NCBI RefSeq assembly: GCF_017875645.1
Contig: NZ_JAGGMR010000001.1
Location: 930,001 to 994,000 of the forward strand
Source: Nocardia goodfellowii
Lineage (GTDB): Bacteria > Actinomycetota > Actinomycetes > Mycobacteriales > Mycobacteriaceae
Length of the DNA: 64,000 bases
Direction: 5' to 3'
Part shown: one piece after another, positions 45,262-64,000 of the stretch
Numbering within the stretch: the stretch's first letter is position 1
Layout: each line of letters opens with the position of its first letter
The notes under the pieces: model-generated
The model's database searches: none
What the model was told of the DNA's origin: nothing
The model's input: the letters and a program-made list of their open reading frames with translations, nothing else
Translations under genes and position numbers: made by a program

Positions 45262-46599
45262 TCAGCCGTTATAGGAGGGTTGCGCCGCTCCGGACAATAG
45301 TCGCCGCGCCGCCTCGAAACCGGATCGTGCGCACGCTTCCAACGGCGCGCCGAGCAGGTAATCGCCGGCCAATTCGAGACCGGCGAGACTGTGCGCTTGT
45401 GAATTTATCTGTGACAGAAAGTCACCATGAAATGGCAGATATCCACAATAAGCGGAATCCCACTGCTGGGTGACCATCCGCACGCGCTCGACTTTGCCGA
45501 CTCCCAGCATCTCCTGAATCCGCGCTTGGGCGTCTTCGATCCACCCCGCCAACTGGTCGGCCGACGGTAATGGGCGGGCCGCCCGGCCGCTGAAGGTGTA
45601 GCGCACCACGTTGAGATCGTTGACGCCGTAGACACCCGCGTTGCTGCACGGTCCGTCGTCGAGGGCGATCGCGCGAATCGCCGGGCTGAAGACCGGGCGG
45701 TCGTATTCGACCACCGCGACGGTCGCGGGAAAATAGTTGACCCCCAGCAACAATCCGCTCAGACTCGGCAACTCCGACTTGACGATCGCGGCGGCGGCGT
45801 AGGCCGGCACGGCCAGCACCACGCCGTCGTAGTGCTGCTCGACCGGCGGCTCGTCCCCCGTCACCACGCGTAGTCCGGTCACCCGTCCGTGCCGCACGAC
45901 GAGTCCGTCGACGCGAGAATGGAGCCGCACCGTCACGCGTTTCGACAAGGCCTCGAACGCGGGCTCGATCCCATGGGTCAGCTGGTCGTAGTTGTCCAGC
46001 ATCATGGCGAGGTTGGTGCCGAAGGTGCCGAGGTAGACCTCGTCGGGTTCGGCGCCGTTCATGCGCACGGTCATCGGGCGGAACAGATTCTGGGTCAGGT
46101 CCGGCCCGAAGTGCTCGCTCAGCGGAATGTGGTCGCTCTTGGCGGCGATCTTGGTGAAGGCCGGCGAACCCAGGAACCGGTTCTCCACATTGCTTTTCAC
46201 GCGGGTGCCCAGGTACAGCAGCTTCCCCACATCCTTGCGGGACCCGATCCGGCCGAGGCTCTTGCGCATCTCGCTGAACAGATGCTGACTGTCCAGCGTG
46301 GTGAGCTTGCCGTCGATCATCCGGGAGGTGTTGATGCCGAACGGCTCGTACAGGTGTACGCCCAGGTCGGCCAGCAGGGCACGCAGGGTCGCATAGTTGT
46401 GGCCGATGTTCTTGCCGCCCATCATGACCGGGCGTTCGCCGAGCCGGTTGATGCCGCACCGGCCGCCGAGGGTGCCGGTGCTCTCGATCAGGTCGACCCG
46501 GTATCCGGCCTGCTCGAGCCGGCACGCCGCGGCGATGCCCGAAATGCCGCCGCCGACCACGGCGACCTGGTTACCGATCGTGTGTGCTGAAGATTCCAC
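45262..46599 (-). CDS. FAD-dependent oxidoreductase, amine-oxidase/protoporphyrinogen-oxidase-like
   Basis: A 445-residue flavoprotein. V-V-G-G-G-I-S-G-I-A-A-A near residues 14-25 is the FAD dinucleotide site, followed by the Glu of D-L-I-E-S and G-G-R-C-G. The C-terminal flavin contact reads E-L-A-G-D-Y-L-L-G-A-P-L-E-A-C. Such enzymes desaturate or oxidise C-N, C-C or C-O bonds. It lies 11 bp after the AfsA-like gene and 19 bp before the LAL gene, so it is probably a tailoring enzyme acting on the released polyketide; the substrate cannot be read from the sequence. Confidence 0.85.
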   Translation of the reverse strand: MESSAHTIGNQVAVVGGGISGIAAACRLEQAGYRVDLIESTGTLGGRCGINRLGERPVMMGGKNIGHNYATLRALLADLGVHLYEPFGINTSRMIDGKLTTLDSQHLFSEMRKSLGRIGSRKDVGKLLYLGTRVKSNVENRFLGSPAFTKIAAKSDHIPLSEHFGPDLTQNLFRPMTVRMNGAEPDEVYLGTFGTNLAMMLDNYDQLTHGIEPAFEALSKRVTVRLHSRVDGLVVRHGRVTGLRVVTGDEPPVEQHYDGVVLAVPAYAAAAIVKSELPSLSGLLLGVNYFPATVAVVEYDRPVFSPAIRAIALDDGPCSNAGVYGVNDLNVVRYTFSGRAARPLPSADQLAGWIEDAQARIQEMLGVGKVERVRMVTQQWDSAYCGYLPFHGDFLSQINSQAHSLAGLELAGDYLLGAPLEACARSGFEAARRLLSGAAQPSYNG

Positions 46600-46610
46600 T
46601 GGTCCGACTC

Positions 46611-47624
46611 CTAGACGTACAGGGAAGGGGCGTGCGGATAGGGCGCCAGTTCGATACGGGCCCGGCCGATCTGTTCACCGAACTGGTGCAATGCCAGATC
46701 GGCGAAGTACTCGCCGAGGTCCGCCTCGGCCGCGCCGGCGACGACGGTGCAGTCCAGGCGCGCGTCGAGTTCGGCGAAGTCGGTGAACTCGGCCTCGATG
46801 CCGACGATCGCCGCCGCTTCGGCCGCCAGCGACCCGGCGGCCACGGCGGCGAAGATCGCCGCCTGCCGGAACGCTTCGATCAACAGCGGGCCGGGCACGT
46901 GGTCGTATTCGTGATCGAAGAACGAGGGGTGCGCCGGGTTCGCGATGACCGGGAACTGCCATCCGGCCTGCTCGGGCAGCGCGACCGCCGTACCCAGCAC
47001 CACATTGCGCGGATCGCGTCGGCCCACCAGGACCGGATCCAGCGGCGTCGAGCCGGTGGGCAGGCCGAATTCGGCGGACTGCAGCGAACGGCGGTAACTG
47101 CGCAGTTCGTCGTACGCCTCAGCGGGGAAGGCGATTCCGCCGCCGGTGAGGGTCATCGCCAGCGCACCCCCGACAGTCACCGTGGTGTCGAAGGAGGTGT
47201 CGGTGAAGTAGCCGCGACTGGCCGAGGCGCCGTCCGCGCGCGCCCGCACGATCCCTTCCAGCGGTGTGCGTTCGTTGTCGCGGAAGGCGCTGAGATCTTC
47301 GACGCAGATCGCCAGGCGCTGCAGACTCACCGGAGTGTTCGGCGGCACGCGCAAATAGCGGTGCCCGATCACGATCAGGGCTTGGCGCACCGCCTCCACG
47401 ACCGAGAGCGGGTCGTGAAAGCGGGCCACCCGGTCGAACCACAGGGAGTGGGCCCGCGGCAGCTGGATCGCGGCCAGGTATTCGTCCGGCCCGGCGGCCG
47501 CGGTGTCGGCGACGAACACCTCACCCAGCGCCCGGCGGTGCGCCAGCCCGCAGGGCACCGTCTGCTCGAACCGCAACTCCCCGGAATGGGAGTCGGCGGC
47601 CGATATCGTCTCTTCGGTCGTCAT
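46611..47624 (-). CDS. AfsA-family protein (butenolide-forming hotdog enzyme)
   Basis: A 337-residue protein with two AfsA repeats. The first has L-P-R-A-H-S-L-W-F-D-R, then D-P-L-S-V-V-E-A-V-R-Q-A. The second has N-P-A-H-P-S-F-F-D-H-E-Y-D-H-V-P-G, then L-L-I-E-A-F-R-Q-A-A. AfsA/ScbA enzymes join a beta-ketoacyl thioester to dihydroxyacetone phosphate, the committed step to gamma-butyrolactones and butenolides. It sits 7 bp after a terminal KS-AT-ACP protein that has no thioesterase and would make exactly a beta-ketoacyl chain. A chain-release role is therefore proposed. The alternative is synthesis of a diffusible signal. Confidence 0.85.
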   Translation of the reverse strand: MTTEETISAADSHSGELRFEQTVPCGLAHRRALGEVFVADTAAAGPDEYLAAIQLPRAHSLWFDRVARFHDPLSVVEAVRQALIVIGHRYLRVPPNTPVSLQRLAICVEDLSAFRDNERTPLEGIVRARADGASASRGYFTDTSFDTTVTVGGALAMTLTGGGIAFPAEAYDELRSYRRSLQSAEFGLPTGSTPLDPVLVGRRDPRNVVLGTAVALPEQAGWQFPVIANPAHPSFFDHEYDHVPGPLLIEAFRQAAIFAAVAAGSLAAEAAAIVGIEAEFTDFAELDARLDCTVVAGAAEADLGEYFADLALHQFGEQIGRARIELAPYPHAPSLYV

Positions 47625-47631
47625 CTCGTCC

Positions 47632-50600
47632 TCATAGTTTGATCAGCGCGTTCTCATCGCCGACGGTCTCCAGGGCGCGGTCGCGGATCAGTTCGGCGAG
47701 GGCGCGTGCGGTCGGATGGGTGAACAGGTCCTCCAGGGACAGCCCGATGCCGGTGAGCACCACCAGGCGGCTGCGCAATTCCAGCGCCGACAGGGAGGTG
47801 AGGCCGACCTCGAGGATGGTCGCCTCCACATCGATCTCGTCGTCGGCCAAATCGATGAGTATTTCCCGGATCTGGGACTTCACCAGCGTCAGCACCGCAT
47901 CGACCTGCGCCGTGTCCGGCAACTCCAGCAGGCCGGCGCGCAGTGCCTCGGCAGCCTGCTCGCGCGATCGAATGTCGAACTCGCCCGCGGAGCCGGTGGT
48001 GTCCTGCTCCTCCTCGGAGCTTCCGCTCCAGTAGTTGCGCCGTTGAAATCGGTAGGTGGGCAGGTCGACGGCGCGGGCGCCGGAATCGGCGAACGTCGCG
48101 GCCCACCGCACGGGAACCCCCCGCGTCCACGCGCCGGCCAGCGCCCGCAGCAGGCCGCGCTCCTGCTGGTCGACGCCGCGCATGACGGGGATCGCCGCGC
48201 AGGCCGCGTCGGTCATGCACTCGTGACTCAGCCCGGACAGCACCTCGCCCGGCCCGACCTCCAGCAGCGTCGTGACCCCCGAGGCCAGCAGGAACTGGAC
48301 GCCGTCGCCGAATCGGACCGGTTCGCGCGCCTGCCGCACCCAGTAGGCGGGCGACTGAAGTTCCGCCGCGGTCGCGAGTACCCCGGTGACATTGGAGACG
48401 AGCGGGATGCTCGAGTCCCGCAGCCGCACCGCCCCGAGCACCGCCGCGTACTCGGCCAGCATGCTGTCCAGCTGCGGCGAGTGGAAGGCTCGCTCGGCCT
48501 TGAGCCGCTTGATCCTTCGCCCACGTTCGCGCCAGCCGCGCGCCACCGCCAGCACCGCGTCCTCGGCGCCGGAGATCACCGTCGAATTGGGGCCGTTCGC
48601 CGCCGCCACCGCCACCTGGTCGGCGTATTCGGCCAGCGCGGCGGTCACCTCCTCGAACGAGGCCCGCACCGAGACCATGGCGCCCGGCGGGAGCGCCTGC
48701 ATGAGACGGCCGCGCGCGGCCACCACGGCGACCGCGTCGGGCAGGGACAGGACGCCGCCGATATGCGCGGCGGCCAGTTCGCCTACGGAGTGCCCGAGCA
48801 CGAAATCCGGTTGTACGCCCCAGGACTCGAGCAGACGGAACAGGGCCACCTCGACGGTGAACAGTGCGGGCTGGGTGTAGTCGGTGCGGTCCAGCAGAGT
48901 GCCGGCCGAGCCGAAGATCACCTCGCGCAGGGAGCCGTCGAGATGGGCGTCGAAGGCGGAGCACAGCTCGTCGAAGGCGGCCGCGAAAACCGGGAACCGG
49001 TCGTAGAGTTCGCTGCCCATCCCCAGCATCTGGCTGCCTTGACCGGGCAGCACGACGGCGAGCCGGCCGCGTTGGCGCGCCCGGCCCTGCACCGTGGCCG
49101 GCGCGAACGCGTCCTGCGCCACCGCGGCCAGACCCGCCGCGAAATCGGTGCGACTGTCCGCGATCAGCACCGCACGGTGCTCGAATGTCGCGCGGGTCGC
49201 GGCCAGCGAGTATCCGATGTCGGCCAGCGCGCGATCCGGATTCGCCACCAGGGCCTCACGCAGCGCGACGGCTTGGTCGCGCAGCGCGCCCGGCGATTTC
49301 GCCGACAGCACCCACGGTTGCGTGAGTACAGCCGGATCGGTTGGGCGATCGGGTGTTTCGGCCGTCGACTCCGGATCGTGCTCCAGGACGACATGCACAT
49401 TGGTACCGCTGATGCCGAACGAGGACACCGCCGCCCGCCGGGGCCGCCCGGTCCGCGGCCAGGGCTGCGCGGCGCCGGCCAGCCGGACCGGGCCCACCGT
49501 CCAGTCGACGTGCGTCGACGGCTCGTCGACATGCAGGGTCGCGGGCACGGTGCCCGCCCGCATCGCCAGGACCGCCTTGATCAGGCCGGCGACCCCGGCG
49601 GCGGTCTGGGTGTGCCCCATATTCGACTTGATCGAGCCCAGCCACAGCGGTGACTCCTCGGGCCGATCGTGGCCGTACACCGCCAGCAGCGCCTGCGCCT
49701 CGATCGGGTCCCCGAGAACGGTGCCGGTGCCATGCCCTTCGACGACGTCGATGTCCAGGGGCGAGAGCCGGGCGTTGGCCAGCGCCTGCCGGATGACGCG
49801 CTGCTGGGCCCGGCCGCTGGGCGCGGTCAGCCCGTTGGATGCGCCGTCCTGGTTCACCGCGGAACCGCGCACCACGGCGAGCACGGGATGCCCGTTCTTG
49901 CGTGCGTCGGACAGTCTTTCGATCAGCAGCAGCCCGGCGGCCTCACCCCAGGCGGTGCCGTCGGCGCCGGAGGCGAACGCTTTGCACCGCCCGTCCGGAG
50001 CGAGCGCCCGCTGCCGGGAGAAGATCGAGAACGGCGCGGCGGTCGCCATCACCGTCACCCCGCCGACCAGCGCCAGCGCGCATTCGCCGGACCGCAGCGC
50101 CTGCGCGCCCTGATGCAACGCCACCAGTGACGACGAGCACGCCGTGTCCAAAGTGACCGCGGGACCCTCGAATCCGAACAGGTAGGAGATCCGGCCCGAC
50201 GCGACGGCCGGCGCGTTGCCGGTCAGGGTGTAGCTCAGCCCGCCGGCCCACGACTCGGGGTCGGTGAGCGCGTAGCCCTGATCGTTCATCCCGATGTAGA
50301 CACCGGTCGCGCTGCCGCGCAACGAGGTCGGATCGATCCGGGCCCGTTCGATCGCCTCCCAGGCGACCTCCAGCAGCAGCCGGTGCTGCGGATCCATCGA
50401 CCGGGCCTCGCGCGGGCTGATCCCGAAGAACCCCGCGTCGAACCCGCCCGCGTCGGCGATGAACGCGCCGGTCCGCACCTCGGACGCGAAATCCGCGTCC
50501 GGGTCCGGATCGTAGAACGCGTCGAGATCCCAGCCTCGATCGTTCGGGAAGTCCGACATCAGATCCCGGCCCTGCGCCAGGGCCTGCCACAGCTCCTCGG

Positions 50601-50754
50601 GTGCGCGCAGCCCACCCGGGAAGCGGCAGCCGATGCCGACGATCGCGATGGGCTCGGACAGTCTCGCGTCCAATTCCCTTACGCGCTGCTGGCTTTCGTG
50701 GAGTTCGCGCGCCGCCTTCTTCAGGTACTTGCGAAGCTCCGCCTCGGTCGCCAT
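47632..50754 (-). CDS. Type I PKS module: KS-AT-ACP
   Basis: A 1040-residue single module. An N-terminal docking coiled coil ([11 protein letters not shown]) precedes the KS (about 33-460) with Cys206 in T-A-C-S-S-S, His341 (E-G-H-G-T-G-T) and His381. The AT (about 560-860) has G-H-S-V-G-E (Ser656) and A-F-H-S-P (756-760), indicating malonyl-CoA. The ACP follows (about 950-1025), with Ser987 in G-L-T-S-L where nearly all ACPs have G-x-D-S-L. There is no KR, DH or thioesterase, so it should end with an unreduced beta-ketoacyl-ACP. The start ATG 50754 shares a base with the stop of the upstream PKS (TGATG). The longer frame to 51543 is a shadow. Confidence 0.93.
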
Positions 50755-53700
50755 CAGATCGAGCCCGCCGCACCGTAAGCCGCGGCCGAGCGCGGCTTGT
50801 CGATGAAGTCGAACAGCTCGTCGTCGTCGGCGCTGTCCAAGCTGGTCAGGACCTCGTCGGCTTCTTCGCCGCGCAGTGTGCGGAGCAGTTCGGTCAGCCT
50901 GGCGGTGATGTCGTCGAGCTCCGAGCGGTCGAGTTCGACGTCGGCGCAGACACCGCGCAGCGCGTCGATCTGCGCCACGATCCGCGCCGGACGGTCGTCG
51001 GCCGGGGCGATCTGCTGGCGCAGGTACCCCGCCAGCGCGCCCGGCGTCGGATAGTCGAACACGACGGTGGTCGGCAGCTTCGCTCCGGTCGAGGATTTGA
51101 GCCGGTTCCGGAATTCCACGGCGCTGAGCGAATCGAAACCCAGGTCCATGAACGGCTGGTCGACGCCAACCGCCTCGGGCGAATCGTGCCCCAGCACCGC
51201 GGCCCCGTGCGCTCGGATGATCTCCAGGATCAGCCGCTCCTGTTCGGTTTCGCTCTTCCCGATCAGGCTCGCCACCAGCTTCGAGGACTCGACCGACCCG
51301 CCGTCGGCGGTCCGCCGGCCGGCCCGCACCACCGCGCGCAAGGTGGCCGGCAGATCGTCGATGTTCTTGCGCAGGGTCGCGACGTCGATCTTGGCGGGCA
51401 CGGCGGTGGCCTGCCCCAGGGTGAGCGCCGAGTCGAGCAGGGCCAGCCCCTCCTCGTCGGAGATCGGGAGGAAGCCCTCCCGATGGATCCGGGCGCGGTC
51501 CTGGGCGGTGAGGTGCTCGGTCATCCCGGTGGCACGTTCCCACAGACCCCAGGCCAGCGACGTCGCCGGCAAGCCGAGCGTGTGCCGGTGCTGGGCCAGC
51601 GCGTCCAGGAAGGCGTTGGCCCCCGCGTAGTTCGCCTGACCGGGTGAGCCGAAGACGCCGGCCACCGACGAGAACAGCACGAACAGCGACAGGTCGAGCT
51701 CACGCGTCGCCTCGTGCAGGTTCCACGCGGCGTCGGCCTTGGACCGGAACACGGCTTCGATGTGCTTCGGAGTCTGGCCGATGAACAGCGCGTCGTCGAT
51801 CACACCCGCGGTGTGCACCACGGCGGTCAGCGGATGGGCGGTCTCGATGCCGGCCAGCACCGCCGACAGGGCGGCGGGGTCGGCGACGTCGCAGGCGGCG
51901 AAGCTGACCCGCGCGCCCTGCGCGGTGAGTTCCTCGGCCAGTTCGCGCGCCGAATCCGCTTGCGCGCCACGCCTGCTCACCAACAGCAGATGCCGGACGC
52001 CGTACCTGGCGACCAGGTGCCGGGCGACCAGGCCGCCCAGCGATCCGGTGCCACCGGTGATCAGCACCGTGCCCTCGGGGTCGAGCGCGCTGGGGATCAT
52101 CAGGACGTTCTTGCCGATGTGGCGCGCGGAGCCCAGGAACCGGAACGCCTCCGGCGCCCGGCGCACATCCCAGGTGGTCACGGGCAGGGTGGTCAGCGCT
52201 CCGGCTTCGAACAGGCGGACCAGCTCGAGCATGATCTCGTGCAACCGGTCCGCGCCCGCCTCCATCAGAACGAAGTTGCGGTACCAGACCCCGGGATGGG
52301 CGGCCGCGACCTCGTCGGGATCGCGCAGATCGGTCAAGCCCATCTCGACGAAGCGCCCGCCGCGCGGCAGCAGCCGCAGCGACGCGTCGACCATGTCACC
52401 GGCCAGCGAGTCCAGCACCACGTCCGCTCCTCGACCGTCGGTCGTGGCCATGAACTTCGCCTCGAACTCGGTGGTCCGGGTGTTGCCGATCTGGTCCTCG
52501 TCGAAGCCCTGGGCCTTGAGCACCGGCCATTTCGGGGTGCTCGCGGTGACCAGTAGTTCCACGCCGAGATGCCGGGCCAACTGCACCGCGGCCATACCGA
52601 CGCCGCCGGTGGCGGCGTGGATGAGCAGGGTCTCCCCGGCCTGCACCTGAGCCAGATCCACCAGGGCGTAGTAGGCGGTGGCGAACACCGCGGGTACCGC
52701 GGCGGCTTGCGCGAACGACCATCCGGCGGGCATCGGGACGAGGGTGCGGCGGTCGGTCACCACGGTGGAGCCCACCCCGGCGAACAGGCCCATCACCCGG
52801 TCGCCCGGCGCGAATTCGGTGACCTCGGACCCGACTTCCAGCACCACGCCGGAACCTTCGCCGCCGATCGGGGCGTTCGGGTCGGGGTACATGCCGAGCA
52901 CGATCAGCACGTCGCGGAAGTTCATGCCGGTGGCGCGCACCGCGACCCGCACCTGATCCGGCCCCAGCCCGAAGGTCTCGACCGGGGTGAGAACCATGTT
53001 GTCCCCGCTGAGGGCGCCGGTGCCGAGCGCGGTGAGCGCCCAGTCCGTCGTGCCGGTGAGTGCCGCCGCACCGACGGTGTCGGCTCCCGCCCGGCCCACG
53101 CGCGGCGCGTGCAGTGCCGTCGCACGGACCGCCAGTTGCGGTTCGGTGTCCACCGCCAGCGCCACCGCGACCGCGTCCCGATAGTGCGTCCAGTCGTCGA
53201 CGTCGACGACCATGATCCGGCCCGGGTTCTCGTTCTGGGCGCTGCGCAGCATGCCCCAGATCGAGCCGGCCGCGAGATCCGCTATGTCCTCGGCGCCGTG
53301 CACCGCCACCGCCCGCCGGGTGACCACCACCAGCGGGGTGTCCGGGGTTCCGCTCGCCAGCAGCGTCTGGACGCGGGTCAGGACCTCGGACACGCGCTCA
53401 CGCACCACCTCCGCGGCGGAGCCGTCGGCGTCGGCGGTCAGCCGCAGGACGATCGCCGTGCGTCCGCCGCCTTCGTACTGCTCCACGTGCAGAGTGGACG
53501 ACGACGCGACCTCGGCGCGGACCGAATCTTCCTCGGAGGCGTTGTCCGGCAACGCCGTCCACGCCCCCTCGGCCGGGGCGGTCTCCGGTCGCGTCACCGG
53601 CACCCAGCCCAGTGCGAACAGCGATTCGTCCGAGCTCGCCGTGCTGCCGCGCAGCTGATCCATCGACACCGCGCGGACCGTCAGCGCCTGCACGGTGGCC

Positions 53701-56700
53701 ACCGCCCGGCCGGACGGGTCGGTCAGGACCAGGCCGATCCGATCGGCGCCGTCCGGCGTCACGCGCACCCGCACGGTGGTGGCGCCGACCGCGTGCAGTG
53801 CGACGCCCTCCCACGCGAAGGGCAGCCGGATCTCCCCGGCACCGGCGCTTTCCGCGTCACCGGTGAACGCCATCGCATGCAGCGCGGCGTCGAGCAGTGC
53901 CGGGTGCAGCCCGAAACGCGCTGCTTCCGAATGCGATTGGGCGGGCAGGGCGATCTCGGCGAACACTTCCCCGCCCAGCGACCAGGCGGCGCGCAGCCCG
54001 CGGAACAGCGGCCCGTACTCGTAACCGATACCGGCGAAGTTCTCGTAGAGCTCGGTCACCGCAATCGCCACCGCGCCGACCGGCGGCCAGGGCGCCAGGT
54101 CATCGGCGGGCACCTGTTCGGTGGCCGGCGCGAGCACACCCACCGCGTGACAGGTCCAGGTGCTCTCGGCCCCGAAGTCCTCGGCCACCGTCGCGGGCCG
54201 CGAGTAGATCGACACCGATCGCTCGCCGGACTCCTGCGGAGCGGCCGCGACGATCTGCACCTCCACGCCGTCCGTAGCCGGCAGGACCAGCGGTGCCTGC
54301 AGAATCAGCTCGTCCACCTGCGGGCAGTCCAGCAGATCGCCGATGTGCAAGGCCAATTCGACGAACGCGGTGCCGGGCAGCAGCACCGATCCGCTGATGG
54401 TGTGCTCGGCCAGCCACGGGTGGGTGTGCTGGGACAGCCTGCCGGTGAGCAGCAGCCCGCCGCCCTGCGCCGGTGTCACCGTCGCCCCGAGCAGCGGATG
54501 CTCGCTCGTGCCCAGGCCCGCGTCCCGGATATTCCCGCCGCCGAGCGGGCAGTCCAGCCAGTAGCGTTTGCGCTGGAACGGGTAGGTGGGCAGGACGACT
54601 CGACGCGCACCCGCCGCCGTGAGCGCCGCCGTCCAGCCGACGGAAGCGCCGGCGCCGTGCGCGGTGGCCAGCGCCGTGAGCAAACCGGTCAGCTCGTCGC
54701 GCTGCGGCCGGAGTACCGGCACCACGGTGATGTCGTCCCAGTCCGTGTCGGCGACGCAGTCCTGGGTCATCGCGCTGAGCGCGGCGCCGGGTCCGACCTC
54801 GACGAAGACTTTCGAGCCGCCGTGGCGGCGCGCCCACTGCGCACCCGCCAGGAACTGCACCGGCTCCCGCAGATGCCGGACCCAGTAGTCCGCGGAGTGC
54901 AGATCGGCGGTGTCGGCCAGCTGCCCGGTGAGGTTGGAGATGACGCCGAGCGTCGGCGTCAGGGGGGTCAGGCTCGCGCAGACCGCCCGGAATTCTTCCA
55001 GGATCGGGTCCATCAGCGGCGAGTGGAACGCGTGGCTGACGCGCAGCTGCTTGGTGCGGATTCCCTGTCCGGCAAGGGTTTCCACGATCCGCGCCACGGA
55101 CTCGGCGACGCCGGAGACCACTACGGCGTTCGGGCCGTTGACGGCGGCGATGCTCACCTCGTCGGTGTGCCCGGCGAGCAAGGGCCGGACCTGTTCCAGC
55201 GGCGCCGCCACCGCGACCATCGCCCCGCCGGTGGGCAGCGACTGCATCAGCCGGCCGCGGGCCGCGACCAGTTTGCAGGCGTCGGCCAGTGACCACACCC
55301 CCGCGACATAGGCCGCGGTGATCTCCCCGATGGAGTGACCGATCACGTAATCGGTGCGCAGTCCCCAGGATTCGGTCAGGCGGTACAGCGCGACCTCGAC
55401 CGTGAACAGGGCCGCCTGGGTGTAGGCGGTCTGATCCAGCAGCTCGGCCTCGGGGCTGTCCGGCTCGGCGAGGATCACCGCGCGTAGCGGGGTGTCGAAA
55501 GCGCCGTCGAAGTGGGCGCAGACCTCGTCGAAGGCCGCCGCGTACACCGGGTAGGCGGCGATCAGCTCCCGGCCCATGCCGACCCGTTGCGCGCCCTGGC
55601 CGGGGAAGAGCAGCGTCGTCTTGGTCACCGAACCGGCGACGCCGGTCACGACCGCGTCGGTGCGCACGCCGGTGGCCAAAGCTTGTACGCCGTCGAGCAA
55701 TTCGGCGCGGTCGCGGCCCAGGATCACCGCGCGATGCTCGAAGGTGGCTCGGCTCGCGCTCAGCGACAGCCCGATATCCAGCGGTGCCAGATCGGGATTC
55801 GCCTGCGCGTGCGCGCTGAGCCGCTCCGCCTGCGCCGTCAGCGCCTCCGGGGAGCGCGCCGAGAGCAGCCACGGGATCAGCGGCATCGGAGTCGCGGTGG
55901 GTTCGATGACCTCGGCCGGCTCGGAGTCGGGTTCGGTGTACTGCTCCAGCACCAGATGGGCGTTGGTGCCGCTGATGCCGAAGGAGGAGACCGCGGCCCG
56001 GCGCGGACGGCCGTTGCGCGACCAGGGCCGCGACTCGGTCACCAGCCGCACTTCGCCGACCGTCCAGTCCACATGCTTGGACGGTTCGTCGACGTGCAGG
56101 GTCGGCGGCATGACGCCGTGCTCCATGGCCTTGACCAGTTTGATGACGCCCGCGACACCGGCAGCGGCCTGGGTGTGGCCCATATTCGATTTGATCGAGC
56201 CCAGCCACAACGGGTTGCCGTCGCGGCGCTCGGCGCCGTAGGTCGAGAGCAGGGCGTGCGCCTCGATCGGATCGCCCAGGGCGGTGCCGGTCCCGTGGCC
56301 CTCCACCAGGTCGATCTCGGCGGCGGGCACGCCGGCGTTGGCCAGGGCCTGGCGGATCACTCGCTGCTGGGCCGGGCCGTTCGGCGCGACGAGCCCGTTG
56401 GAGGCGCCGTCCTGGTTCACCGCGCTGCCGCGGATCACCGCCAAAATCGGGTGACCGTTGCGGCGCGCGTCCGAAAGGCGTTCCAGCAGTACCATGCCGA
56501 CGCCCTCGCCCCAGGAGGTGCCGTCCGCGGCCGACGCGTAGGACTTGCAGCGCCCGTCGGCTGACAACCCCCGCTGCGCCGAGAAGCCCACGAAGGCTTC
56601 GGTGGTCGCGAACACGCACACGCCGCCGGCCAGGGCCAGGCTCGACTCCCGGGTGCGCAGCGACTGCACCGCCTGGTGCATCGCCACCAACGACGAGGAG

Positions 56701-57314
56701 CACGCCGTGTCCAGCGTGACGGCGGGGCCTTCCAAGCCGAGCGTGTAAGCGATCCGGCCGGAAGCGACGCTGGAGGTGCGCCCGGTCAGCAACAGCGCGC
56801 CGAGCCCTTCCCGGTCGCCGGTGATAGCCGGTCCGTAAGGAGTGGAGATCAGTCCGGCGAATACGCCGGTGTCGGAGCCGCGCAGCGTCGCCGGGTCGAT
56901 GCCCGCACGCTCCAACACCTCCCACGCGGACTCCAGCAGCAACCGCTGCTGCGGATCCATCGCCATCGCCTCGCGGGGGCTGATCCCGAAGAACGCGGCA
57001 TCGAAATCGGCGGCGTCATAGAGGAATCCGCCGTCACGCACGTACGAGGTGCCCTCTTTCTCCGGGTCCGGGTCGTAGGTGTTCAGATCCCAGCCCCGAT
57101 CGGTCGGCCAGCCCGACACCAGGTCGCGGCCCTGCGCCACGACATCCCACAGGTCCTCGGGCGAGGCCACGCCGCCGGGGAATCGGCAGGCCATGCTGAC
57201 GATCGCGATCGGCTCGTTCGCCCGCGCCACCGTCTCCTGCAGGCGCTGGTGGGTGGTCTGCAACTCGGTCGCTGCTCGCTTGAGGTATTTGCGGAGCTCT
57301 TCTTCGTTCGCCAT
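50754..57314 (-). CDS. Type I PKS module: KS-AT-DH-ER-KR-ACP
   Basis: A 2186-residue fully reducing module. After an N-terminal docking helix the KS has Cys205, His340 and His380. The AT has G-H-S-I-G-E (Ser661) and H-A-F-H-S-P (761-766), so malonyl-CoA is expected. The DH has H-x3-G-x4-P from His971 and Asp1142 in L-L-D-A-A-L-H. The ER NADPH loop is G-G-V-G-M-A near 1570. The KR has G-G-T-G-S-L-G-G near 1753, a B-type V-I-D-D motif, and Ser1882/1883-Tyr1896-Asn1900. The ACP is D-L-G-F-D-S-L, Ser2062. A C-terminal docking segment follows. All reductive sites look intact, so it adds a saturated two-carbon unit. First gene of the leftward operon. Confidence 0.95.
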
Positions 57315-57367
57315 GGGATACCGACCTCTAATTCGTGTGCTTTTCGGAAAAGGCTACGGACACCCGT

Positions 57368-57430
57368 GTAATTGCCCGGTAATCCTCGAGTCTGCGACTA
57401 TTTCGACGTGCCTGATTACTCGGCAATTAC
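57368..57430. promoter_or_regulatory. Paired operator-like inverted repeat between PKS and monooxygenase genes
   Basis: GTAATTGCCCGGTAATC (57368-57384) is repeated inverted as GATTACTCGGCAATTAC (57414-57430) with 15 of 17 bases complementary and a 29-base spacer. Each arm is itself a near-palindrome of the form ATT-n-C-n-C-GG-n-AAT. It lies in the 174-bp divergent promoter gap, so a dimeric regulator could control both directions. Which regulator binds is unknown. Confidence 0.65.
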
Positions 57431-57488
57431 CAGCCGCTGCAACGGGATCCGTTGACGCCGCGTACCAGGGCCCTTAGCCTCGGCTACC

Positions 57489-58997
57489 ATGACCTCATCG
57501 CGTTCCCCGGGCCACTCGCGTTTACCGCGGATCGCGGTCATCGGGGCCGGCATGTCGGGTATCTGTATGGCGATCACATTGCAGCGTGCCGGGTTCACCG
57601 ATTTCACGGTATTCGAGAAAACTTCCGCGATCGGCGGAGTCTGGCGTGACAATACCTATCCGGGATTGACTTGCGATCTGCCGTCCCGTATCTACCAGTT
57701 CAGTTTCGCGCCCAATCCGGAATGGTCCAGCTTCTTCTCACCCGGTGCGGAAATCGACCGATACCTGACCGACGTCGCCCATCGGCACAATCTCGAACCA
57801 CATATCAGATTCGATACCGAAGTCCGTTCGGCTGAATTCGACGGCACCGCCTGGACCGTGCGCACCGACGACGGTGTGGAGATTTTCGATTTCGTCGTGT
57901 GCGCGACCGGAATTCAACACAATCCGCATATCGCCGAGCTGCCCGGCATGGCGAGTTTCGCCGGTTCGATATTTCATTCCGCGCGCTGGGATCACAGCGC
58001 GGAGCTGGTGGGCCGCCGGGTGGGCGTGGTGGGCACCGGCTCGACGGGCGTGCAGCTGACGACCGCGCTGGCCGGAAAGGCCGCGCACTTCTCCCTGTTC
58101 CAGCGGACCGCTCAGTGGATGCTGCCGGTGCCGAATCCCCGGTACTTCGATATCGCCCGATGGTTGCGCCGGCGGTATCCGGTATTGGACCGGCTCAGTT
58201 ACCGGACCATCCATTTCAGTTGCGAATTCCTGTTCGACGCCGTGATCAACCCGGGATGGCGGCGCACCGCCGCCGCCTGGATCTGCCGGGCCAACCTGCG
58301 CCGGGTCCGCGATCGCGACCTGCGCCGGGCACTGACTCCCGACTACGTGCCGCTGTGCAAGCGCATCGTGGTGTCGACCAAGTTCTACCGCGCGGTGCAG
58401 CGACCGGATGTCTCGGTGGTCACCGACGCGATCGAGCGCGTCGAGCCGCGCGGGATCGTCACCGCGGACGGCACGCTGCACGAACTCGATGTCATCGTGC
58501 TCGCGACCGGGTTCGACCCACGCAGCTATATGCGTCCCATGAATTTGATCGGCACCCATGGCCGAACCATCCACGAAGAATGGGAATCCGGTCCGAACGC
58601 ATTCGAAACCGTGGCGCTGCCGGGATTCCCGAATGTTTTCCTGATGTTGGGCCCGAACAGTCCGGTGGGAAATTTTCCGCTGACCGTGGTAGCCGAATGG
58701 CAGGCGCAGCACATCGTCGGCTGGTTGCAGCGCTGGAGCAACGGCGAACTCAGCACCGTCGAGCCGACCCGGGCGGCGGCCGAGGAGTATAACGCGAAAA
58801 TCCGCGCGGCCATGCCGAATACGGTGTGGACCAGCGGTTGCCAGAGCTGGTATCTGGGCGCCGACGGCAGCCCCGATCTGTGGCCCTTCACTCCTCGTGC
58901 GCATCGCACGATGATGCAACGCATTCCGGACCTCGCGAATTATCACATCAGCACCCCCGCGCACCCTGCCCGCGTCGGCGAAATAGCGGAAGACTGA
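57489..58997 (+). CDS. Flavin-containing/Baeyer-Villiger-type monooxygenase
   Basis: A 502-residue class B flavoprotein monooxygenase. The FAD site is G-A-G-M-S-G (19-24), the fingerprint F-A-G-S-I-F-H-S-A-R-W-D matches the Baeyer-Villiger motif F-x-G-x3-H-x3-W, and the NADPH site is G-T-G-S-T-G. It would insert oxygen next to a ketone or oxidise a heteroatom; an arylamine from p-aminobenzoate is one conceivable target. It is divergent from the large PKS and followed at 51 bp by the MMPL gene on the same strand. Confidence 0.9.
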   Translation: MTSSRSPGHSRLPRIAVIGAGMSGICMAITLQRAGFTDFTVFEKTSAIGGVWRDNTYPGLTCDLPSRIYQFSFAPNPEWSSFFSPGAEIDRYLTDVAHRHNLEPHIRFDTEVRSAEFDGTAWTVRTDDGVEIFDFVVCATGIQHNPHIAELPGMASFAGSIFHSARWDHSAELVGRRVGVVGTGSTGVQLTTALAGKAAHFSLFQRTAQWMLPVPNPRYFDIARWLRRRYPVLDRLSYRTIHFSCEFLFDAVINPGWRRTAAAWICRANLRRVRDRDLRRALTPDYVPLCKRIVVSTKFYRAVQRPDVSVVTDAIERVEPRGIVTADGTLHELDVIVLATGFDPRSYMRPMNLIGTHGRTIHEEWESGPNAFETVALPGFPNVFLMLGPNSPVGNFPLTVVAEWQAQHIVGWLQRWSNGELSTVEPTRAAAEEYNAKIRAAMPNTVWTSGCQSWYLGADGSPDLWPFTPRAHRTMMQRIPDLANYHISTPAHPARVGEIAED

Positions 58998-59048
58998 GTC
59001 GCCGCCAAACCCGTTCCCTGTACGGCTATTTCAGTTAGGATTACCGCC

Positions 59049-61235
59049 ATGATCCACTGGTGGGGAAACATTCTCATCGCACGCCCGCGTGCGATTCTAG
59101 CGTTTGTGGTAGTCGCGATTATAGGCGCGGGAATTTGGGGCCTGGGGGTGATGAACCATCTCAGTCTGGGTGGATTCACCGACCCGGACAGCGAATCCAC
59201 CTACGTCGACGAATATGTCGAGCAACATTTCGGCCGCATCGATGCCAGCGACCTCATCGTCCTGTACCGCCCGCAATCCGGTCAGTCGCTGGACGCACTC
59301 GGGCCGGCGGTGGCGGCATCCCTCGAGCACATCCCCCCGGATCGGATGGTCGCCACGCCGCGGACCTACTGGTCCATCCCGAATTCGGACCTGACCAAGC
59401 TGGCGTTCCGCTCCACCGACGGCAGCACCGGTCTGGCGACCTTCGCGTTCTCCGGTGACGAGGACGCCAGAATCCGCACCTACCTCGATGTTCGCGATCA
59501 CCTGCGGATCCCCGGCGTCGAGGTCCGCTTCGGCGGTATCGCGGCGGTCGCCGACGCGTACAACCAGGAAGTGCTGACCAATGTGGTGCGCGCCGAACTG
59601 GTGTCGTTCCCGCTGATGCTGATCCTGCTGCTGTTCGTGTTCGGTGGCTTCGTCGCCGCCGCGGTGCCGCTCGCGGCGGCGGGATTGTCGCTGCTCGGTG
59701 CGTTTTTCGCGTTGCGCATGCTGCAGCAGTGGACCGAGGTCTCCGCCTTCGCCGCCAACACCGCGTCGCTGATCGGGCTGGGTCTGGCCGTCGACTACAG
59801 CCTTTTCATGGTCAGCCGGTTCCGGGAGGAGCTGCGCGCCGGGAGCAGCACCGAGGACGCGGTCCGCGCGATGATGGTCACCGCCGGTCGCACCGTCGCC
59901 ACCTCGGCGGTGCTGCTGGCCTGCGGGTCGATCGGCATGATGTTCTTCGATCTGGCGTTGATCCGCTCCCTGGCCTACGGCGGGCTCGCGGCGATGACGA
60001 TCGCGGTGGTGGTGTGCCTGACCGTGCTACCCGCCACCTTGCTGCTGCTCGGGCCGCGGATCAACGCCCTGGCGTGGCGGCGCGGAGTCATCGACCGGGT
60101 CGAGCAGCGATCGGTGACCTTCTGGGGCAACTTCGCCGACCGGGTGCTGCGGCGGCCCGTCGCGGTGTTCGCCGCGGTGACGGCGGTGCTGGCGGTCTGC
60201 CTGCTGCCGCTGTCCGGCATCAAGATCGGCGACGTCGACCACAACGGGCTACCCAGCGGTGCGCAGGCGCGCGTCACGATGGATCAGTTCTACGCCGACT
60301 TCCCGTTGGCCCGCACCGGCGCGAAAATCCTTGCCCAGCATGCGGACGGGACGCCGGCGAGCGCGTCGGAAGTCGCCGCGATCACTCGCGCGGCCGAACG
60401 CGTGCCCGGTGTCTTCCGGGTGGAAGCGGTGGGCGGCCCCGACTCCGGGGTGATCTACGCCCGGTTGACCGACGCCGAACGCAGCCCGGCCGCGCAACAG
60501 ACCGTCGACAAGTTGCGCGCCATCGCCACCGAGCCGGGGACGGCACTGAAAGTCGGTGGTACCACGGCGGTTTCCCAGGACGGCATCGCCGCCACCAAAG
60601 AGCGGATCCCGGCGATGCTGGGATTCATGGTGCTGGCCACCTTCCTGGTGCTGCTGCTGAGTTTCGGGTCGGTGGTGCTGGCGGTGAAGGCGGTGCTGAT
60701 GGCCGCCATCAGCCTCGGCGCCACCTACGGGGTGCTGACGTGGATCTTCGTCGACGGCCACGGGGCGGGATTGCTGGACATCACGCCCAGCCCGATGTTC
60801 GCGCCGATCGCGCTGATGCTCTCGACGCTGGTGTTCGGGCTCTCCAGCGATTACGAGGTGTTCCTGTTGTCGCGGATGGTCGAATCGCACGTCGACGGCG
60901 ACGACACCGACACGGCGATCCGCAACGGCATCGCCCACACCGGCCGAGTCGTCACGGCAGCGGCGTTCCTGCTGGTCGCGGTGACCGTGGCCTTCTCGCT
61001 GACCTCGCTGACCATGATCCGGCTGATCGGTGTCGGCGTCATCGTCGGCCTGCTCATCGATGCCACCATCGTGCGCATGCTGCTGGTCCCGGCCAGCGTG
61101 AAACTCATGGGCCGAGCCAACTGGTGGGCCCCCGGGCCGCTCGCCGCCATCATGGCTCGCGCCGGCCACTCGCGGGTCCGCACTCCCGCGCAACAGCACG
61201 GGCTGCTCGAGTCCGCCGACAGTTCGAGTTCCTGA
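59049..61235 (+). CDS. MMPL-family RND exporter
   Basis: A 728-residue membrane transporter with about eleven helices in the MmpL layout: one N-terminal helix, an external domain, five helices, a second external domain, then the remaining helices. The charged residues in G-L-A-V-D-Y-S-L-F-M-V-S-R-F-R-E and G-L-S-S-D-Y-E-V-F-L-L-S-R-M are the paired proton-relay positions of helices 4 and 10. It is shorter than lipid-exporting MmpL proteins and resembles the MMPL exporters found in antibiotic clusters, so export of the polyketide and self-protection are likely. Convergent with pabAB across a strong terminator. Confidence 0.9.
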   Translation: MIHWWGNILIARPRAILAFVVVAIIGAGIWGLGVMNHLSLGGFTDPDSESTYVDEYVEQHFGRIDASDLIVLYRPQSGQSLDALGPAVAASLEHIPPDRMVATPRTYWSIPNSDLTKLAFRSTDGSTGLATFAFSGDEDARIRTYLDVRDHLRIPGVEVRFGGIAAVADAYNQEVLTNVVRAELVSFPLMLILLLFVFGGFVAAAVPLAAAGLSLLGAFFALRMLQQWTEVSAFAANTASLIGLGLAVDYSLFMVSRFREELRAGSSTEDAVRAMMVTAGRTVATSAVLLACGSIGMMFFDLALIRSLAYGGLAAMTIAVVVCLTVLPATLLLLGPRINALAWRRGVIDRVEQRSVTFWGNFADRVLRRPVAVFAAVTAVLAVCLLPLSGIKIGDVDHNGLPSGAQARVTMDQFYADFPLARTGAKILAQHADGTPASASEVAAITRAAERVPGVFRVEAVGGPDSGVIYARLTDAERSPAAQQTVDKLRAIATEPGTALKVGGTTAVSQDGIAATKERIPAMLGFMVLATFLVLLLSFGSVVLAVKAVLMAAISLGATYGVLTWIFVDGHGAGLLDITPSPMFAPIALMLSTLVFGLSSDYEVFLLSRMVESHVDGDDTDTAIRNGIAHTGRVVTAAAFLLVAVTVAFSLTSLTMIRLIGVGVIVGLLIDATIVRMLLVPASVKLMGRANWWAPGPLAAIMARAGHSRVRTPAQQHGLLESADSSSS

Positions 61236-61245
61236 TCCGACGAGA

Positions 61246-61288
61246 AGCGCTCCCGCACACCCTCTTCCGGAGGGGGTGCGGGAGCGCT
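61246..61288. terminator. Bidirectional terminator between MMPL and pabAB genes
   Basis: A 13-bp perfect outer stem (61246-61258 with 61276-61288) with an additional CCCTC/GAGGG inner stem lies between convergent stops, 11 bp and 15 bp from them. Confidence 0.85.
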
Positions 61289-61302
61289 GGTTCGTCACCG
61301 GG

Positions 61303-63429
61303 TCAGGCCGGGACGCCGGACGGGTAGGTGGACTCCCCGGCCTTGTCGGTGCGAACGTCTTCCGGGGCCACCGACCGCAACGCCGATTCCGCCTTGAGCA
61401 TCATCTCGTCGAACTCCGCGGCGGCATCCGAATCCAGCAGGACCGCGCCGCCCGCGCCGGCCCGCAGCAGACCGTCGTGGATGACCGCGGTGCGGATGAC
61501 GACGTTGAGGTCCGCGGTGCCGTTGGCAGCCAGGAAACCGAGTGTGCCCGAGTAGATGCCGCGGGCCTGCGTCTCCAGTTCGTCGGTGATCTCGATCGAC
61601 CGCAGCTTCGGCGCTCCGGTCATGGAACCGCCGGGGAAGCAGGCCCGCAGCGCGGCGATCACGCTTACTTCGGGTCGTAACCGGCCGCGAATGGTCGACA
61701 CCAGCTGGTGCACCGTGGCGTAGGACTCCACCCGCATGAACCCCGGCACCGACACACTGCCGATGTCGCAGACCCGGCCCAGATCGTTGCGCAGCAGGTC
61801 GACAATCATGAGGTTCTCCGCACGAGTCTTGGCGCTGCCGGCCAGTTCCCGCGCGAGGGCCAGGTCGACGTGCGGATCGTGATCGCGCGCGGCGGTGCCT
61901 TTGATCGGCTTGGACTCCACCACGCGTTCCGGCGAGACCCGCAGGAAGCGTTCCGGCGAGGAGCACAGCACGTGCAGTTCGCCGAATCGCAGGTAGGCCG
62001 CGTGCGGTGCCGGGTTGGTGCGGCGCTGCCGGCAGTACAGCTCCAGCGGGTCGCCGCGAAACGGCGCCTCCACCATGGTGGTCAGGCAGATTTCGTAGCT
62101 CTCCCCCGCGTGCAACTGATCAATGCACTGCTCGACGTTGTGCTCGTAGGTTTCCCGGGATTGCACCAGCCACGGTTCCGGGTCGAATCCCAGCACCGCC
62201 GATCTCGGGGGCGTGCCCTCGGCGGCCGACCACCCGGAGATCCGTTGCGTGGTCTGCGCGAGCCAGTGCCCGGCGCGCCCGGCGGCACGCGGCTCATCGG
62301 GGAACATCGTGACCACCCAGGTGCTGTCGTCCTCGTGATCGACGACGACGAGGCGGTCGGCCGACATCCACAGCGCGTCCGGATACGACGACACATGCTT
62401 GTTGGGCGACCCGCACTCCTCTTTCAGTTCATAACCGAAGTAACCGACGTAACCGCCGGTGCAGTCGAACGGCAACTCCGGGGTCGGCGGCAAGGCGCGC
62501 TCGGCGAGACGCCGATCCAGCACCTCGAACACCGAGCCCTGCTCGGTCCGCGTCGCACCGCCGGCGGCGCGCACGCCCACCACGCCCGAAGCCACGTCAT
62601 AAGTGAGGGTTTCGCCGAGCGGGCCGTCGGCCGCACCCAGATAGGAGAAGCGCGACAAACCTGGCTCGACGCGGCTGCTGTCCAGCCAGAACGAGTGCGC
62701 GGCGTTCGCGAACAGCGTGCGGTACACCCGCTCGGTATCGACCGCACCGTCGATCCGCCGATGTTCGACCCGCCAGCGCGCCGCGGGTAGCGCGGGCACG
62801 GCGTTCGTTTCCGCGCGAAAGTCGCTGGGCCCCAGCGCGGTACCGTCGCTGTCCGCACCCACCAGCGCCCGGAAGTTCTCCAGCAGCCGCGCACCGTGCT
62901 CGGTGGCGATCGACTCCGGATGGAACTGCACTCCCCACCACGGCTCCCGCAGGTGCCGCAAACCCATCACCACGCCGTCGGCCGACCACGCGGTGACCTC
63001 CAGTTCCGGCGGCAACGGCGATTCGACACACAGCGAGTGATACCGCACGGCCGTGAAATCTTGGGGAATGCCGGCGAACAGGTCGGCACCGCTGTGCCGG
63101 ATCTGTTCCAGGTGACCGTGCCGCGGCGCCGGAGCGCGCACCACCTCCGCGCCCGCGACGTAGGCCAGTGCCTGATGACCCAGGCACACGCCGAGCACCG
63201 GAAGCCCGGTGCGGCGGATCAGATCCAGGCTCATCCCGATATCGCGCGGCGTGCTCGGGGTGCCCGGACCAGGCGAGATCACCAGGGCGTCGAACTCGCC
63301 GGGTGCAATCGTGCGCAGCGCCTCGTCGTCGTTGGTGTAGACCACGGGTTCGCAGCCGTAGACCGCCGCCATCAGCTGAAAGAGGTTGTAGGTGTAGGAG
63401 TCGTAGTTGTCGATGAGTAGCGTCCGCAT
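61303..63429 (-). CDS. pabAB: Aminodeoxychorismate synthase (PabA-PabB fusion)
   Basis: A 708-residue fusion. The N-terminal class I glutamine amidotransferase has Cys82 (G-V-C-L-G-H-Q), His170 and Glu172 (F-H-P-E-S). The chorismate-binding half carries P-I-K-G-T with Lys510, the residue that marks 4-amino-4-deoxychorismate formation; anthranilate synthases have an Ala-type variant there. Fused enzymes of this kind supply p-aminobenzoate in secondary metabolism (candicidin, chloramphenicol-type pathways), while folate synthesis usually uses separate genes. An ADC lyase (PabC) is not visible in the window. It lies 45 bp after the end of a PKS gene on the same strand, so it probably shares its transcript. 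Confidence 0.93.
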   Translation of the reverse strand: MRTLLIDNYDSYTYNLFQLMAAVYGCEPVVYTNDDEALRTIAPGEFDALVISPGPGTPSTPRDIGMSLDLIRRTGLPVLGVCLGHQALAYVAGAEVVRAPAPRHGHLEQIRHSGADLFAGIPQDFTAVRYHSLCVESPLPPELEVTAWSADGVVMGLRHLREPWWGVQFHPESIATEHGARLLENFRALVGADSDGTALGPSDFRAETNAVPALPAARWRVEHRRIDGAVDTERVYRTLFANAAHSFWLDSSRVEPGLSRFSYLGAADGPLGETLTYDVASGVVGVRAAGGATRTEQGSVFEVLDRRLAERALPPTPELPFDCTGGYVGYFGYELKEECGSPNKHVSSYPDALWMSADRLVVVDHEDDSTWVVTMFPDEPRAAGRAGHWLAQTTQRISGWSAAEGTPPRSAVLGFDPEPWLVQSRETYEHNVEQCIDQLHAGESYEICLTTMVEAPFRGDPLELYCRQRRTNPAPHAAYLRFGELHVLCSSPERFLRVSPERVVESKPIKGTAARDHDPHVDLALARELAGSAKTRAENLMIVDLLRNDLGRVCDIGSVSVPGFMRVESYATVHQLVSTIRGRLRPEVSVIAALRACFPGGSMTGAPKLRSIEITDELETQARGIYSGTLGFLAANGTADLNVVIRTAVIHDGLLRAGAGGAVLLDSDAAAEFDEMMLKAESALRSVAPEDVRTDKAGESTYPSGVPA

Positions 63430-63474: not shown

Positions 63475-64000
63475 TCACTGGTTCGGTCGCGCCGACCCGT
63501 GCCACTGGTCGATGAATTCGAAGAGGGTCGCGTCGTCGGCTGCGGCCAGCTCCGCGCCCGCGGGCTGCTCGCCTGCGTTGCCGGCTTCCTCGAGGCGGCC
63601 GAGCAGCTCGCCGAGCCGCAGCGCGACCGCGCCCAGATCGGTGCGGGCCACGTCCGCCGCGACGATCCGCGCACCCAATTCCTCGACGAGCGACAACAAT
63701 CCGGCGGTTCCGTTCTGCCCGCCGCCCATCGTGTCGCTGATGTGGCGCGCCAGCGCCGCGGGTGAGGAGTAGTCGAAGACCACCGTGGTCGGGATCGTCA
63801 CATCGGTCACCGCGCGCAGGCGATTGCGGAACTCGACCGACCCGATCGAATCGAAGCCGAGGTCGTTGAACTGCGCGTCCGCGGCGACCGCGCCCGAGCC
63901 GCGGTGTCCGAGCACCGCGGCGGCGTGCTCGCGAATCACGTCCAGTACCAGCCGTTCTCGTTCGCTGGCCGGCTTCCCGTCCAACCGCGATTCGAGCTTG
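63475..64000 (-). CDS. Type I PKS, C-terminal ACP and docking domain (partial)
   Basis: The C-terminal 174 residues of a PKS whose 5' part lies beyond the right edge; the frame is open to base 64000, and the apparent start near 63984 is an internal TTG. The ACP has D-L-G-F-D-S-I with the phosphopantetheine Ser, then T-T-V-V-F-D-Y. A C-terminal docking helix region follows, ending L-F-E-F-I-D-Q-W-H, closely like the corresponding end of the large PKS at 50754. It therefore probably hands its chain to one of the two downstream PKS proteins. No thioesterase. Confidence 0.92.
   Translation of the reverse strand, partial: KLESRLDGKPASERERLVLDVIREHAAAVLGHRGSGAVAADAQFNDLGFDSIGSVEFRNRLRAVTDVTIPTTVVFDYSSPAALARHISDTMGGGQNGTAGLLSLVEELGARIVAADVARTDLGAVALRLGELLGRLEEAGNAGEQPAGAELAAADDATLFEFIDQWHGSARPNQ

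Follow-up and report, generated by a model that had tools for sequence, protein, structure and literature searches.

The window analysed here is a stretch of 64,000 nucleotides from the actinobacterium Nocardia goodfellowii (C1:930001-994000 of a 7.98 Mb genome, C1 being contig NZ_JAGGMR010000001.1). It holds a compact polyketide synthase (PKS) cluster, situated at about C1:972-1002 kb and running past the right end of the window, in which the last module lacks a ketoreductase (KR) and is followed by a separate gene for an AfsA-family protein. The explanation that best covers the whole is that a short line with acyltransferases (ATs) in cis, primed with p-aminobenzoate (PABA), has its chain released by the AfsA-type protein. 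We consider this explanation likely as a whole; its central element, the AfsA-type protein as release enzyme, is quite probable, and PABA as the starter is very probable. The release role is proposed because AfsA chemistry requires a 3-ketoacyl thioester, and the module preceding the AfsA gene is KR-less.

The assembly line and its last module

The initial annotation had described an AfsA-family gene 7 bp after a KR-less module, and this was confirmed: the AfsA gene occupies 46611..47624 and the module, encoded by PKS3, 47632..50754, both on the minus strand. By Pfam and motifs, PKS3 reads docking domain, ketosynthase (KS), AT and acyl carrier protein (ACP); an open reading frame starting with GTG and reaching 51543 is over-long, and the ATG at 50754 is the likely start. 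Pfam detected no KR, dehydratase (DH), enoylreductase (ER) or thioesterase in PKS3, and no thioesterase in PKS1 or PKS2 either, so that the three thioesterase-free PKS ends reported initially stand. PKS2 (50754..57314, minus strand) has the order docking-KS-AT-DH-ER-KR-ACP. PKS1 (63475-71673 in window numbering, of which the window holds 63475..64000; C1:993475-1001673; L005:1475-9673; minus strand) is composed, according to Pfam and motifs, of an AMP-binding CoA-ligase (PF00501, 287.7 bits), a linker of unassigned kind, ACP, KS, DH, ER, KR and ACP.

Both PKS2 and PKS3 start with Pfam docking domains, the only loading domain is in PKS1, and the residues following the last ACP match number 87 in PKS1, 88 in PKS2 and about 17 in PKS3. 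The two longer ends were read by eye as docking tails, of which PKS3 has none. Taken together, these features place PKS3 last in the line, as first thought. The AT motifs are HAFH in PKS2 and RAFH in PKS3, both of which we take, by common motif rules, to be malonyl-type. From the domain order, the chain presented to the AfsA-type protein would be 7-(4-aminophenyl)-3-oxoheptanoyl-ACP, if module 1 functions despite its absent AT.

The AfsA gene is an open reading frame with its own start, behind a ribosome-binding-like GAGGAC. Its product, of 337 residues, matches PF03756 with 129.6 bits (cut-off 24) over two AfsA hotdog stretches. An AlphaFold model (pLDDT 80.8) has the secondary structure of two hotdogs, and its best matches in the PDB are mostly hotdog-fold thioesterases and dehydratases; a PDB search by sequence for a relative gave a chance hit only. 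Residues H29, R30, E35, E77, R80, Q81, H238, D241, H242, E250, R253 and Q254 are identical in all 72 AfsA rows compared.

A different release domain elsewhere in the cluster was the first objection foreseen, and none was found in or near it. In a genome-wide search, no PF00975 match over the cut-off lay within 180 kb of the cluster, the nearest matches being one below the cut-off at C1:916207 and one above it at C1:1187557. An alpha/beta hydrolase gene (41005-41952) was considered as a source of the release enzyme and rejected: the product is a LipP1-type esterase by NCBIfam, the gene lies beyond that of the SARP-family regulator, and it is not among the PF00975 matches.

Recurrence of the arrangement

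AfsA matches at 1e-20 occur in 86 of 150 genomes of the genus. Their context (up to 20 kb) was fetched for 40 places, 20 from a stronger and 20 from a weaker group, a set that leaves out other matches, including six at 40-44% identity (in G146, G027, G071, G061, G050 and G147). Where identity was 52-60% (17 loci in 16 genomes), KS-AT-ACP lay directly before AfsA in every case. With one locus from a metagenome-assembled genome (L074) and the present one, these make up an own clade of 19 loci, and genomes with examined loci of this clade number 17 of the 150. A sister group of 25 loci, with a PKS module or its end at most 4 kb upstream of AfsA, comes from Nonomuraea, Streptomyces, Kitasatospora, Nocardiopsis, Frankia, Nocardia and others.

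Since KS-AT-ACP followed by AfsA recurs in all 19 loci examined, the arrangement is more than chance. KR is found in none of the 19 AfsA-facing modules, compared with all 24 of the other same-strand modules that have an ACP; for the sister clade the figures are 0 of 23 and 15 of 15, two of the 25 loci (L097 and L099) being unscored because their contigs begin inside the last module. Domains were located by tblastn with queries from the present cluster, and modules without an ACP match are omitted from the tally unless they adjoin AfsA. Nine of the 16 joined locus maps repeat one base at the join, which splits matches there (as with the doubled KR in N. brasiliensis); none of the terminal modules is close to a join. 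No thioesterase was found in 17 of the 19 own-clade loci, in stretches of 10.6 kb (L051) to 53 kb, with 182 kb for the present locus.

As judged from their sequences, the ACPs that face AfsA fall into a separate class. All 19 carry the motif GLTSLS, and the nearest neighbour in another locus belongs to the same class for every terminal (19/19) and every internal ACP (38/38). Mean identity is 0.55 among terminal ACPs and 0.30 between the terminal and internal classes. Genome G103 has a line of at least six modules (L050, L125, L126) that ends in KS-AT-ACP, AfsA and a flavoenzyme, with an FMO-like gene beyond; a second AfsA locus of the same genome (L054) has one module in view.

Phylogeny of the AfsA-family proteins

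In a tree of 72 rows (14 loci were dropped as duplicates of genus loci, and L105-L107 as partial or distant), the 19 rows of the own group, all preceded by KS-AT-ACP, are held together with support 100/96. The 25 sister loci group at 97/99, with one unlabelled row, L060, inside, and the two groups join at 96/93. The tree was midpoint-rooted for drawing only, so that 'clade' here means one side of a branch. Receptor-linked, nitroreductase-linked and type-II-KS-linked AfsA proteins, as well as six of the seven HAD-linked ones, fall outside both PKS groups; the seventh, L150, which has no upstream PKS, sits with the PKS side (100/99) on a long branch, such branches being present elsewhere too (for example, L132 and L153). 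The rows include no MmfH, GdsF/GlaE or Spt9 sequence, and a common origin with in-cis release domains is a question outside the scope of this tree.

The possibility, raised in the initial annotation, that the protein groups firmly with signalling synthases was thus not borne out: it lies in the 100/96 group away from receptor-linked members, and its score with NF041195 (ScbA/BarX) is 176.6, below the 200-bit cut-off, when the genome's other AfsA scores 206.3. That other copy (C1:7523195-7524088; L010:17151-18257) belongs to the nitroreductase-linked set and has NDK-, reductase- and PPDK-type genes upstream. The label covers 11 rows, all from Nocardia; a nitroreductase gene lies directly behind AfsA in 10 of them, L144 having no nitroreductase match beside it. 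No PKS or receptor match was found upstream in the stretches of these 11 loci.

The flavoenzyme partner

A flavoenzyme gene (45262..46599, minus strand) begins 11 bp after the AfsA gene. The proteins nearest to the model of its product (pLDDT 90.6) are protoporphyrinogen oxidases and monoamine oxidases. A homologue is present in all 19 own-clade loci: in 16 it comes immediately after AfsA, and in the remaining three, those of N. brasiliensis and N. vulneris (56% identity each) and N. colli (40%), it lies at a greater distance within the cluster. It also lies behind AfsA in 7 of the 25 sister-group loci and in all five of the loci with a type-II-like KS pair close by (44-60% identity), and gave no match behind the 11 nitroreductase-labelled, 7 HAD-linked and 4 receptor-linked AfsA genes. 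This link to AfsA across three PKS settings suggests that the flavoenzyme acts on the released ring, by oxidation. In the third setting (the Nocardia loci L134, L135, L136, L137 and L139), AfsA and flavoenzyme genes are found near two distant, type-II-like KS matches and an AT on the opposite strand, which may represent a type-II line with AfsA release.

The starter unit

A fused PabAB bearing the P-I-K-G-T motif had been noted initially, and it proved to be a good aminodeoxychorismate synthase candidate. Encoded at 61303..63429 (minus strand), 45 bp from PKS1, it scores 350.3 with TIGR00553 (the PabB equivalog of NCBIfam, whose cut-off is 328.4), and its residues 508-512 read PIKGT. Five chorismate-binding genes in the genome exceed the cut-off: TrpE, another PabAB, the cluster PabAB and two isochorismate synthases. 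The other PabAB (C1:7365 kb) passes the same PabB model and is 63-81% identical, over the best segment, to the PabABs of the six Nocardia loci examined. The cluster copy, a divergent second one, is 54-56% identical to these and 53-57% identical to the other copy of its own genome. The cluster gene was therefore rejected as a plain housekeeping gene. APH-type and TerD/HNH genes accompany PabAB in all three of the six Nocardia loci whose neighbouring genes were scanned. Entry to 4-aminophenylalanine was also rejected as the purpose of PabAB, no mutase or dehydrogenase of that route being seen among the scanned genes, which falls short of a full search.

Extension of the sequence to the right, where the initial annotation had expected a PABA loading module and pabC, gave the former (the AMP-binding CoA-ligase and ACP of PKS1) and, within the cluster, not the latter. 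The loading ligase has a feruloyl-CoA synthetase and a fatty-acyl-CoA synthase as its closest solved relatives, and these leave its substrate unfixed. Among 49 plasmid records with a match, five ligase relatives lie in varied clusters that do not settle the starter, and relatives also occur in PKS lines whose context suggests other starters. That a loading ligase of aryl-acid type has a second, dedicated PABA synthase next to it is nonetheless good, if indirect, evidence for a PABA starter.

Proposed pathway

We infer the following scheme. The cluster PabAB would raise the supply of aminodeoxychorismate, and a lyase encoded elsewhere in the genome would complete PABA, which the CoA-ligase domain of PKS1 would put on the first ACP. 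According to the domain order, modules 1 and 2 would each extend the chain by one fully reduced C2 unit; PKS3, as module 3, would add the last unit and keep its beta-ketone. Family chemistry and gene context suggest that the AfsA-type protein would then catalyse the condensation of dihydroxyacetone phosphate with 7-(4-aminophenyl)-3-oxoheptanoyl-ACP; after ring closure by an intramolecular aldol reaction, the chain would leave as a phosphorylated 2-acyl-3-(hydroxymethyl)butenolide, AfsA taking the place of a thioesterase. The phosphate might then be stripped by an unspecific phosphatase, and the ring or chain, once released, might be oxidised by the flavoenzyme; addition of oxygen by the FMO-like monooxygenase is possible too, as is export through the MMPL protein. 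The loading module, the thioesterase searches and the tree support the interpretation given in the initial annotation; the phosphorylated butenolide is predicted from family chemistry. No single final form of the ring (butenolide, butyrolactone, furan or an oxidised form) reaches an even chance.

Several observations weigh against this scheme. Neither Pfam nor an AT motif pattern search found an AT in module 1 of PKS1, which must therefore be served in trans or be skipped. The module is of cis-AT type, with the KS-AT linker joined directly to the post-AT linker, and its KS N-terminal match covers 233 residues of a 252-position profile; corresponding modules in three relatives retain the AT. 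The DH motif of PKS1, HRIQDRVLLP, has Asp at the position of the usual Gly. The three PF01063 genes of the genome, candidates for pabC, are all outside the cluster; the best models for the nearest (C1:1034115) are branched-chain transaminases, below whose cut-offs it scores. Two queries for a HAD phosphatase had no match in the cluster.

Further objections come from the related loci. The 19 own-clade loci are related by descent, so that their counts are not independent events. KR-less KS-AT pieces with no detected ACP, not facing AfsA, exist in G013, G137 and G044; they lie before a second flavoenzyme copy, and counting them as modules would bring the tally to 24 of 27. A separate thioesterase gene is found in two of the 19 loci (G021 and G013), and a thioesterase gene or domain in 23 of the 25 sister-clade loci, in at least one of them as a domain that follows the terminal ACP; release there may not depend on AfsA alone, and the case for AfsA as sole release enzyme therefore rests on the own clade. 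Sister loci with a thioesterase fall within L077-L102 (for instance, L078:9213-9965, L085:6747-9980 and L094:3332-9947), and in the two that were scanned, L085 and L094, PKS and AfsA are separated by genes for a KAS III and a PF01494 monooxygenase. Lastly, L060, on the same contig as L103 and nested in the sister group, adjoins a HAD phosphatase and a receptor-like regulator, and its KS-AT-ACP is about 8 kb upstream. It is possibly a switch back to signalling, and sister-clade membership alone is accordingly no proof of off-loading.

Alternative explanations

Release by AfsA may operate as proposed and yield a product that is itself a signal, namely a PABA-capped butyrolactone or butenolide hormone and not an antibiotic. 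With only three modules, the line is predicted to give a molecule of hormone size (C16), and regulator genes are adjacent. Against this, no receptor gene was found in the 40 kb searched, and a metabolite that is tailored and secreted would account for the transporter and monooxygenase equally well. We regard a signal as the less probable fate of the product, while giving it some weight.

A second variant concerns the ring. The butenolide phosphate could be converted to a 2-alkyl-4-hydroxymethylfuran-3-carboxylic acid of the methylenomycin-furan type, with the flavoenzyme in the role of MmfH. MmfL and MmfH are likewise a pair of AfsA homologue and oxidoreductase, and the flavoenzyme stays with AfsA. 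By our reckoning, however, furan and butenolide are isomers, so that an oxidase is not obviously needed; moreover, the flavoenzyme fold is protoporphyrinogen-oxidase-like, and neither of the two HAD-phosphatase queries had a match in the cluster. This conversion seems improbable.

AfsA proteins classically make regulators, and the present one might be an ordinary hormone synthase acting on fatty-acid 3-ketoacyl thioesters and making a regulator of the cluster, the PKS chain being freed by water or another enzyme. The adjoining SARP and LuxR regulators, and the receptor-like gene beside L060 in the sister clade, would fit. This explanation is nevertheless very unlikely: two queries for a ScbR-type receptor had no match in the 40 kb around the cluster, the ScbA/BarX cut-off is missed, a KR-less module with its special ACP precedes AfsA in 19 of 19 loci, and the PF00975 and locus thioesterase searches revealed no other release domain. 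A different aryl acid as starter, with PabAB working for folate or for something else, is just as doubtful. Some PKSs with no PabAB nearby do contain ligase relatives (including ligases 56-57% identical in three Nocardia clusters with none in 51-53 kb, and one adjoining what are presumably ansamycin-type starter genes), but a further PabAB is encoded elsewhere in the genome, and the one in the cluster has diverged and lies 45 bp from the ligase gene.

Other genes of the cluster

The cluster extends beyond the piece first annotated on both sides, to the right with PKS1 and to the left with the flavoenzyme, LuxR and SARP genes. The LuxR-family regulator gene (43179..45242, minus strand) starts 19 bp after the flavoenzyme gene, and the SARP-family regulator gene (42437..43231, plus strand) faces these two. 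Between PKS2 and PabAB, on the opposite strand, lie the genes for an FMO-like flavin monooxygenase (57489..58997, plus strand) and an MMPL-family transporter, possibly the exporter (59049..61235, plus strand). The monooxygenase matches one of two Baeyer-Villiger fingerprints and not the other, in the form in which it was written here. On both sides of the cluster, the flanking genes that were scanned look like ordinary chromosomal ones.

Comparison with known systems

A-factor and SCB-type synthases (AfsA, ScbA, BarX) use fatty-acid-derived substrates. The Nocardia protein shares with them the Pfam family, the residues that are invariant across the receptor-linked members compared too, and the predicted reaction; it differs in that they adjoin receptor genes, whereas it sits behind a KR-less PKS module and scores below the ScbA/BarX cut-off. 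Salinipostin-type clusters also hold an AfsA homologue. PABA-primed polyketides such as candicidin have a CoA-ligase loading domain and a PABA synthase gene in the cluster, and both are found here; the Nocardia line, unlike the candicidin type, has only three modules and no thioesterase. In the MmfL, MmfH and MmfP system (PMC7037778, PMC6604932), an AfsA homologue is paired with an oxidoreductase, as would be the case here; the differences are the HAD phosphatase, not found in this cluster, and probably the flavoenzyme, with its modelled protoporphyrinogen-oxidase-like fold.

Among titles and the opening parts of abstracts, with most subscription journals outside the search, no description appeared of a modular cis-AT PKS followed by a stand-alone AfsA, of a PABA-primed example or of this Nocardia family. 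Within those limits, the new element would be stand-alone, cis-AT, actinobacterial AfsA release, AfsA-type release in cis being already known. It is an evenly balanced matter whether actinobacteria possess a portable, thioesterase-free cassette for cis-AT lines, made of a KR-less KS-AT, a dedicated ACP class, a stand-alone AfsA and a flavoenzyme, and fitted to lines that differ in starter and range from a single module to at least six; the present cluster would then be the PABA-primed case, its product an aminophenyl-alkanoyl butenolide of a type that has yet to be isolated.

The closest parallel is gladiostatin/gladiofungin of Burkholderia gladioli, for which two reports describe AfsA-type release in cis (PMC7756379, PMC7756420) and, in vitro, release of ACP-bound 3-keto thioesters with dihydroxyacetone phosphate for gladiostatin (PMC7756379). 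In both systems an AfsA-family catalyst, the AfsA-like (PBS) domain in Burkholderia, follows the last PKS module with no thioesterase; PKS3 would leave a 3-ketone, no PF00975 match over the cut-off lies within 180 kb, and a phosphorylated acyl-butenolide from a 3-keto thioester is predicted here as well. In Burkholderia a trans-AT PKS carries the domain fused at its C-terminus, whereas the protein of the actinobacterium Nocardia stands alone after a cis-AT module and has a flavoenzyme as partner. Fused-domain release of this type was shown in 2020; if our explanation is true, the same chemistry acts in trans on cis-AT lines and, recurring in Nocardia, can be recognised from DNA by three marks, the KR-less last module, the special ACP and the flavoenzyme partner. 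It would further predict a family of butenolide-capped metabolites, and would offer a free-standing release enzyme movable between assembly lines and a clear way to test which features allow an AfsA-type enzyme to read an ACP.

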